Shown one piece after another: positions 31,115 through 33,716 of a stretch of 64,000 nucleotides of DNA. The stretch is from Ceratodon purpureus (taxonomy: Eukaryota; Streptophyta; Bryopsida; Pseudoditrichales; Ditrichaceae), in contig CM026431.1 of the NCBI GenBank assembly GCA_014871385.1, positions 6,380,842 to 6,444,841 of the forward strand, read 5' to 3'. A program made the position numbers and the translations under genes. Positions within the stretch are counted from its first letter, which is position 1; each line of letters starts with the position of its first letter. Under the pieces are notes generated by a model. It worked only from the letters and a program-made list of their open reading frames with translations, did not search any database and had not been told where the DNA came from.

Positions 31115-33716
31115 TCAGAACCGAAGCTTGGAGAAAAACCACCTGTTCTTGCCAGTCTTAAACCTCTCCTCCAAAACTGCCTTTGCCCCCTGTCGTCACC
31201 AATCACAAACCACTAAAATTAGAAAATTATTCTGATTTATTTTTTATACAAAAAACAAGACACTGTTGAAGTGAACCGTACCGCAGGAAGTGTTTAGATC
31301 ATAGACCACTAGACGGAACACCAAGCTCAACCTTAATATTATACATAAGATCATACACAGTAATAATCCGAGAAAGCAATTACAGAGCTAAACAAAAATA
31401 CTTTAGGTGATTGTGTGGCAGTGCAATTGTTTCTAGGAACGGTTGACCAAAAGTGAACACTCTGATATCCGCGCAGGGATTACCTTCCTGGCTTCTACAC
31501 GGCTGGCGGTAGACTCCAATTTCTCGGCGGTTACAGTGGACTTCAAATCCACGTCCAAAGTGTACCTGTGATGATTACCATATACAAATGAGAAAAACTT
31601 TTAATACTTTTGCGTCCATATAAGCAAGTCAACAAGGTGACTTCCATCCATCCCAGAAAACAGAACCATTCTCCTACCCCAAACATGCTTTAATAGTAAG
31701 GCGATCGACTAGAATCAACTCGGTTAATTTCGTGGCAAAGTTGTGAACTAAATTCTGCACATTTCACAAACTCCTTGATATAATTTCCGTTGACTGTGAA
31801 AATGATGTCTGAGAAGCTACTATCAGATGGCACCCAGTAATAGGGGTGTTGTCAGCGAAACTTTCAGTCTAATTTTTGCCTCCCATGAATCAGACAGACA
31901 TGTGATATCAGGCTGGGATTAAAGGGGCACAAAGGTAAGCCAAACTTGGCATTCATCTGTGAAGATAATTTCCGTTGATGTAAAACGATGTCTGAGAAGC
32001 TACTATCAGATGGCACCCAGTAATAGGGGTGTTGTCAGCGAAACTTTCAGTCTAATTTCTGCCTCCCATGAATCAGACAGACATGTAATATCAGGCTGGG
32101 ATTAAAGGGGCACAAAGATAATTCAAACTTGACATCCATCTGTGAAGATAATTTCCGTTGATGTAAAACAATGTCTGAGAAGCTACTATCAGAGTGCACC
32201 CAGTAATAGGGGTGTTGTCAGCGAAACTTTCAGTCTAATTTTTGCCTCCCATGAATCAGACAGACATGTAATATCAGGCTGGGATTAAAGGGGCACAAAG
32301 ATATTTCAAACTTCACATGCATCTGAGCATATAATTCTGTATCGTCACACCTACGGATTGTAAATTAACCCGGAACATACAGTGTGCTTCTAGAACACAG
32401 GTCACGCGAGCACAATCTAAGGCCAGAAACGAGAGATCCGAAGAGAATAAACGAGTACCTGGTGGGCATAATGTGGTTGTAATTCACCACCTTCGTGAAT
32501 GCTTTCAGTCTGGAGCGCTTGGCAATGGTCTTCTGGGACGCCTTCTTAATTACCTGCAACCAGAAAAAATTCGGAGCGAATTACTTCTCTAATGTCGATT
32601 TCCATCCCCGTAACGATAGCCACTTGTCTGCACCATTCTCCCAGAGCGGAGCAATTCCAAATGACAAAACTCCAGGCACTCTACTGAGCAGCACCACCCA
32701 TCACCATGAACAAAATCTAAGACTGTCCGAAAAGCTACTATCAGATTGCACCCAGTAATACGGGTGTTGTCAGCGAAACTCCCAATTCACTTTTGGCCTC
32801 CCATGAATCAGACAAACATTCGTCACGTAAGGCTGGGATTAAAAAGAGGCACAACCCTCACATCACTACCAAAACCCAAAACCCTACGAATCTCATCTGC
32901 AGATAATTGGTAAATAATAACCCCATACTGACACTGCGCGTAAATAATCTCTCAATCTATACTCACCAATAGCACAAAACCCCGGACGCCCACAAGAACA
33001 TCACCAAAGTCACAGAATTCCACTTCCCCGAAATCACTCCCAAAATGAAAACCTAAATCTCTCCATTCAATCCCTGCAACATCCGAAAATGCTTACCCCC
33101 ACAAACCCCTACATTAACCAAAAATCAGAGAAACTCTGCTGAAACCCCCGAATGTGAACCAAGACTTTAGTAGAAACAATGCTACCAAATAGGCCATCCT
33201 TCAGTGCTTCTCTTAGGAAACCCCCAGCCTAAAAACGATCGTGAATCACGATTCCGTTGAAGTTGCGCGATTAGGTCTATAGCATACAACCTCTATCATT
33301 AACTCTTAGGGATCGTGAGAGTGCTTCATGGCACAGACCATGCCGAACCACTTTACCGTAGACCCCTTAATATTTTCTCTAGTAGAAACTCCAGCCTAAA
33401 TACCAGCATGAATAAGTCAAGAGCCTGTAGAGGCAGTGCCACCAAATAGGTCACCAAATGCCAGGTGCTACTCTTGATACCTCTTCCTCTTTGATGATGC
33501 CCAAGAATGGAAGAGAGAAATGGGGTGCAAGACAGAGAGAGGAAGAGAGAGAGATATTACCTTGCGGGGGTACTTGGCAATGCCGGTGACGATGGCGTGG
33601 CCGTAGGGGCGCTCCTTGGTGCCATCGTCGAAGTTCTTGACGATGACGGCCTTACGGCCGGCGTAGCGCCCCTGCAGGAGCACGACCACCTTGTTGGGCT
33701 TCAGGAACTTGACCAT
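31115..33716 (-). CDS. RPL27: Cytosolic large-subunit ribosomal protein eL27
   Basis: Four exons (33716-33561, 32553-32459, 31565-31484, 31189-31115) give 135 aa, the normal length. [23 protein letters not shown] is the KOW-type start. Next come [11 protein letters not shown] and [10 protein letters not shown]. The end [15 protein letters not shown] is diagnostic. The protein is part of the 60S subunit near the tRNA-binding face. Introns 1 and 2 are long (1.0 and 0.9 kb) and carry four copies of a snoRNA-like unit on the sense strand. Four telomere-type hexamers lie 110-143 bp upstream of the ATG, in the expected leader or promoter. Such telo-boxes are common in plant translation genes. Confidence 0.98.
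31803..31933 (-). ncRNA. Candidate box H/ACA snoRNA, copy 1 (eL27 intron 2)
   Basis: The sense strand folds as hairpin, hinge, hairpin, tail. The 5' arm has UGCC/GGCA with inner UCCCA/UGGGA. The hinge AAAUUA fits ANANNA. The 3' arm has CUGA-AAG paired to CUU-c-UCAG, then inner CACCC/GGGUG. ACA follows the stem at once, three bases before the proposed 3' end. An intron of a ribosomal-protein gene on the sense strand is a usual home for such RNAs. The target uridine is not assigned. Confidence 0.6.
31986..32116 (-). ncRNA. Candidate box H/ACA snoRNA, copy 2 (eL27 intron 2)
   Basis: Same 131-nt unit 183 bp further along, with only scattered substitutions. Stems, hinge AAAUUA and terminal ACA are all kept. 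The 52-nt spacer to the next copy is also related, so the unit was amplified by tandem duplication. Confidence 0.58.
32169..32299 (-). ncRNA. Candidate box H/ACA snoRNA, copy 3 (eL27 intron 2)
   Basis: Third unit, again spaced 183 bp. The main differences from copy 1 lie in the internal loop of the 3' arm (AUGG changed to AGUG on the plus strand), the region that would bind a target. Stems and ACA are unchanged. Confidence 0.58.
32721..32854 (-). ncRNA. Candidate box H/ACA snoRNA, diverged copy 4 (eL27 intron 1)
   Basis: A more diverged copy in the upstream intron. In the outer 3' stem, three substitutions turn CUGA/UCAG into UUGG/UCGG, and every pair survives as G-C or G-U. Inner CACCC/GGGUG and UCCCA/UGGGA and the ACA are kept, while the 5'-arm apical loop has changed. 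The hinge no longer fits ANANNA exactly, so this copy is less sure. Confidence 0.5.

Follow-up and report, generated by a model that had tools for sequence, protein, structure and literature searches.

The window, a 64,000-nucleotide stretch of the genome of the moss Ceratodon purpureus, carries an intact gene for the ribosomal protein eL27, made up of four exons and coding for a 135-aa product that matches Ribosomal_L27e at 3.4e-34 (Table 1). GT/AG borders were found for all three of its introns, and three eL27 paralogues likewise have four exons with GT/AG introns. Introns 1 and 2 harbor four copies of an element of about 127–132 nt, all in sense orientation with respect to the gene: a single copy lies in intron 1 (1007 nt) and the other three in intron 2 (893 nt). 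The starts of consecutive copies are 183, 183, and 552 bp apart. The 183-bp unit present three times in intron 2 is 100%, 96%, and 87% identical to the reference copy, and TRF described this array as 3.0 copies with 94% matches.

Table 1 Positions of the eL27 exons, the snoR83 copies, and their boxes and guide strands in the window.
Feature	Position in window	Strand	Remarks
eL27 exon 1, with start codon	33561..33716	(-)	
eL27 exon 2	32459..32553	(-)	
eL27 exon 3	31484..31565	(-)	
eL27 exon 4, with stop codon	31115..31189	(-)	
snoR83 copy, intron 1, about 132 nt, from the outer 5′ stem to 3 nt past the ACA (inferred ends)	32721..32852	(-)	Rfam RF01227, 68.3 bits at 32721-32839; conserved 5′ extension outside the Rfam model
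snoR83 copy a, intron-2 tandem trio	32169..32295	(-)	RF01227, 64.7 bits at 32169-32285; 183-bp unit
snoR83 copy b, intron-2 trio	31986..32112	(-)	RF01227, 62.8 bits at 31986-32102
snoR83 copy c, intron-2 trio	31803..31929	(-)	RF01227, 63.9 bits at 31803-31919
5′-pocket left guide UUAAUC, intron-1 copy shown	32837..32842	(-)	10/10 Rfam-positive copies
5′-pocket right guide UUCAUG, intron-1 copy shown	32802..32807	(-)	10/10
3′-pocket left guide GUUUCGCUG, intron-1 copy shown	32771..32779	(-)	10/10
3′-pocket right guide UAGUAG, intron-1 copy shown	32735..32740	(-)	7/10
ACA box, intron-1 copy	32724..32726	(-)	

The original prediction, made from the sequence alone, had described this arrangement of four sense-strand copies, three of them at 183-bp spacing in intron 2 and one in intron 1, and had taken them for a box H/ACA snoRNA hosted by ribosomal-protein introns. 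The arrangement is present as described, and a covariance-model search gave the element a name. All four units match snoR83 (RF01227), a plant box H/ACA family, on the minus strand and over the full 129-position model (1–129), with scores of 62.8–68.3 bits against a curated cut-off of 40 bits and E-values from 8.1e-11 to 1.8e-9. When the whole window was compared with Rfam, snoR83 was the sole family that reached its cut-off. An intronic guide RNA first noticed in the bare sequence is now confirmed by homology search.

At least ten snoR83 matches occur in the 362-Mb genome (four in the window, three in the eL27 paralogues, and three on C7), a lower bound because scoring covered 49 of 23199 first-look candidates. 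Four eL27 genes were recovered with PF01777, namely the window gene and paralogues on C8, C3, and C13, and each of the four has snoR83 in its intron 2, with one copy in each paralogue; snoR83 is in this way tied to an eL27 host in C. purpureus (4/4 genes found). The C7 copies, a separate tandem expansion outside eL27, are three tandem units about 200 bp apart (L009 4037-4556, minus strand). A reading frame encoding an RRM domain precedes them on their own strand, and they probably sit in its intron. An eleventh, degenerate copy was detected in intron 1 of the C8 eL27 gene (L010 4936-5049, minus strand) with a ten-copy profile, which was applied to five loci besides the window. It keeps the ACA, the hinge box, and two of the four guide strands (GUUUCGCUG and UUCAUG) and has lost UUAAUC and the 3′-pocket right strand, making it either a relic or a retargeted guide. 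Given its position, the occurrence of snoR83 in both introns is not peculiar to the window gene.

A two-hairpin fold of the H/ACA type is supported by the ten copies. RNAalifold returned two hairpins with ACA past the last stem, in agreement with the original prediction, and the ACA directly follows the 3′ stem in each of the ten, with the presumed 3′ terminus three bases further on. The full-length matches above the cut-off, the order of the two hairpins, and the ACA tail are what the window copies share with the snoR83 family. An exact ANANNA hinge is found in three of the four window copies (3/3 in the trio) and in six of the ten overall; the four without it (4/10) are the intron-1 copy and the C7 trio. 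Standard pairs fill 96.7% of the cells of the named 27-pair H/ACA structure, compared with 28–42% when the structure is slid by 1–3 columns. Column shuffles of the named structure gave a mean of 95.3% paired cells, and 1/500 was as high as 96.7%. Three of the 27 pairs are changed on both sides, a number matched in 21/500 column shuffles, and the covariation score was reached by 1/500 shuffles; further pair types were no commoner than in shuffles (385/500). Three pairing-neutral stem substitutions reported earlier for copy 4 are real: at columns 75, 76, and 79 of alignment A1, they still pair as U.G, U.G, and G.U.

In the ten-copy alignment, two pairs of the outer 5′ stem are lost from every copy of the window trio, whose register is shifted by a U tract shorter by 2 nt; read in its own (shifted) register, the trio forms five of the six pairs of the lower/outer 5′ stem. 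The Rfam snoR83 model begins about 10–13 nt inside the conserved block (window 32840-32850). The 10–13 conserved nucleotides upstream of the first base of the model (GCCUC...) would complete the outer 5′ stem, which is probably missing from the model. In the structure line of Rfam, by contrast, UCCCA is paired with UGGGA.

The element is conserved far above the intron around it. In a blastn comparison of the 12 eL27 introns (E 1e-3, dust on), different introns shared only the snoRNA segments, at 78–93% identity. Four-fold-degenerate coding sites among the eL27 paralogues agree at 41/62 to 47/61. Tandem repeats are common in introns, and the array could in principle have been of low complexity or a product of chance, with no significance in its folding. 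Such a reading has a very small probability and is already refuted by the Rfam E-values, by the recurrence of the element on C7 as well as in each of three paralogues, and by a conservation that is confined to the snoRNA element.

The copies differ in their history. The members of the intron-2 trio are 96–97% identical to one another, which supports, for the trio, the recent expansion that had been proposed. The intron-1 copy had been called the diverged one, and it does differ from the trio (78–79% identity). Within the family as a whole, however, it is not the diverged copy, being 88–92% identical to the intron-2 copies of the paralogues, compared with 79–81% for the trio. In a ten-copy tree, the window trio (100/100) and the C7 trio (99/99) formed the two fully supported groups, and four of the seven inner branches were left open; the window trio sits on its own long branch, and the degenerate C8 copy also forms a long branch. 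Taken together, the identities and the tree indicate that the intron-1 copy is the window copy nearest to the paralogues and that the intron-2 trio is the derived branch, multiplied after it had diverged.

This history bears on whether all the copies work. Part of the array, chiefly the intron-2 trio, might be a non-functional neutral duplication, with the intron-1 copy and the other copies supplying the RNA. The divergence of the trio and the closeness of the intron-1 copy to the paralogues would suit such a reading, as would the existence of the degenerate C8 unit and of seven other genome matches that could cover the function. However, unlike the degenerate C8 copy, the trio has kept its ACA, its ANANNA hinge (3/3), all its guide strands, and five of the six lower-stem pairs (in the shifted register), and we consider a non-functional trio rather unlikely.

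The guide strands themselves show little change. UUAAUC, UUCAUG, GUUUCGCUG, and UAGUAG are identical in all four window copies, and among the ten copies the deviations are those of the three C7 copies, in which the final base or final two bases of UAGUAG are altered. The differences between window copies are confined to the hinge, the apical part, the outer/lower stems, and the 2-nt-shorter U tract. The original prediction had seen differences in the target-binding pockets and suggested changed targets; with identical guide strands in 4/4 window copies, this part was not supported. The array would then hardly be a set of guides of differing specificity, some of them retargeted. The long branch of the trio would be in keeping with retargeting, and the degenerate copy in C8 intron 1 shows that guide strands can be lost, but the identity of the four strands makes it very unlikely, as does the location of the trio differences, which fall in the hinge, in the apical and lower stems, and in the shortened U tract.

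H/ACA pockets pair with rRNA on either side of a uridine, through complementarity of two strands, and the target uridine lies about 14–16 nt before the box. The 5′ pocket fits the 25S sequence CAUGAA-U-G-GAUUAA with 6+6 pairs in all ten copies, and the 3′ pocket fits CUACUA-U-[C/U]-[C/U]AGCGAAAC, located 35 nt downstream of the 5′-pocket site. Both proposed pockets require a mismatch below the upper stem. A strict pocket scan, which demanded that three stem pairs immediately top the pocket and that the lower stem of the 5′ hairpin end at a distance of 13–18 nt, did not return the 5′ site, which its rules excluded (12 nt distance, mismatch). Among the top three sites per copy in that scan, the 3′ region came up only third-ranked and differently paired, in W_i2b and W_i2c. 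The rules were loosened (one mismatch, 10–16 nt) after the target hypothesis had been formed by eye, and the later scans were not blind.

A scan of eight rRNA pieces gave the 5′-pocket site the best score common to the ten copies (12; next site 9.5), a shared score that 5 of 100 shuffled sets also reached (mononucleotide shuffles, made on four of these pieces). In W_i2c, an 18S site outscores the 5′ site (12.5 vs 12), and a score of 12 is not rare for this single copy, as it was reached in 68 of 200 cases when three rRNA pieces were shuffled; in the per-copy scan (seven rRNA pieces), all nine remaining copies have the 5′ site at the top, two of them with a tie. These shuffles drew on three and four rRNA pieces, and the matching real scans on seven and eight.

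With the assembled rDNA, the 3′ site ranks 4th to 17th per copy, and its common score of 7.5 is lower than the 10.0 of an 18S site. The rDNA was sought by short conserved patterns and one 89-base query, and these searches found no functional rDNA in the assembly. The loci examined with cmscan (L023, L027, and L028) are partial or degenerate, with inserts and deletions; together with C12:15332552-15332579 they make up the partial or degenerate rDNA found, and the assembled rDNA copies are taken to be decayed. An exact pattern for an intact 25S had no match in viral_contigs, and a near search of plasmids was likewise empty. The three copies of the 3′ site found in the assembly all read AGCAAAACC, where the Rfam consensus is AGCGAAACC. 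The reading AGCAAAACC breaks the left duplex in all three. They also read AGCAAAAC compared with AGCGAAAC in the Rfam eukaryotic LSU consensus, which differs from the genome at another base of the 3′ site as well.

Yeast 25S rRNA is modified at positions 2314, 2337, 2340, 2347, 2349, and 2351, according to the excerpted text of PMC8307265. A single offset sets these six positions on matching bases, and the six-position pattern occurs at one of the 3124 positions of the assembled LSU of L023, which is the 5′-pocket site. By this alignment and its pairing, the 5′ pocket probably targets the equivalent of yeast U2314 (Psi2314). With one base set to the Rfam consensus, the duplexes of seven of the ten copies are 9+6 for U2349 or 7+8 for U2351, and those of the C7 copies are weaker, 9+4 or 9+5 for U2349 and 7+6 or 7+7 for U2351, all having been scored at the chosen sites only. 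Taken on the Rfam consensus, U2351 reaches a score of 10, close to the shuffle mean of 8.9. The 3′ pocket may well target the equivalent of yeast U2349, or of U2351 where that base is a U, though we hold this with somewhat less assurance than the assignment of the 5′ pocket. Of the two proposed rRNA pairings, the 5′ site has the best shared score, equaled by the shuffles noted above, and the 3′ site fits only with one Rfam-consensus base.

Overall, the four intronic units of the intact eL27 gene are copies of snoR83, and they would very probably guide pseudouridylation of 25S rRNA. The copies would be transcribed within the eL27 pre-mRNA, excised from introns 1 and 2, and assembled with the H/ACA core proteins, after which the RNA could direct pseudouridylation at both proposed sites. 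The intron-2 array would stem from a recent tandem duplication of the 183-bp unit, and its effect would most likely be a higher dose of one RNA with unchanged targets. What we describe is a known guide-RNA family that has undergone a recent local expansion and has probably gained in dosage. As a further idea, one RNA binding two 25S sites 35 nt apart might, in multiplied copies, act there as a dose-sensitive folding chaperone in addition to its role as a modification guide, and the diverged trio might be a specialized subtype made only from this eL27 gene; we regard this combination as improbable.

In yeast, Psi2314 is guided by snR86, and Psi2349 and Psi2351 are guided by snR82, as stated in the excerpts of PMC8307265 and PMC2551606. 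The sites proposed here are equivalent to these by the alignment of the six modified positions. Yeast, in those excerpts, uses two RNAs for sites that we propose are served by one two-pocket RNA. In the main-text excerpts of the literature covered here, snoR83 was named in lists only, and neither a target for it nor an eL27 host in a plant was found. Two testable 25S target sites can now be offered for snoR83, and this two-site assignment and the eL27 host are possible additions to knowledge.

The general picture is unchanged, as ribosomal-protein introns are known hosts and the paralogues of plant snoRNAs are commonly clustered and scattered. In the excerpted text of PMC5122169, only a small number of snoRNAs in plants are encoded in introns, and the majority of the plant families comprise several paralogues, both clustered and genome-wide. 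The corresponding part of PMC3022908 describes intronic snoRNA genes as frequent in rice and as an exception in Arabidopsis, and, for rice ribosomal-protein introns, it counts 15 intronic snoRNA clusters or single genes that go with a given pair of promoter motifs. In the 1200 bp upstream of the window eL27 gene, a single telo-like motif is present, at -648, whereas site II motifs are absent; such counts are patchy upstream of the eL27 genes and carry no weight as support. The window shares with the rice genes described in that part of PMC3022908 the nesting of snoRNAs in ribosomal-protein introns, and it differs from the rice intronic clusters in that one snoRNA is repeated, in eL27.
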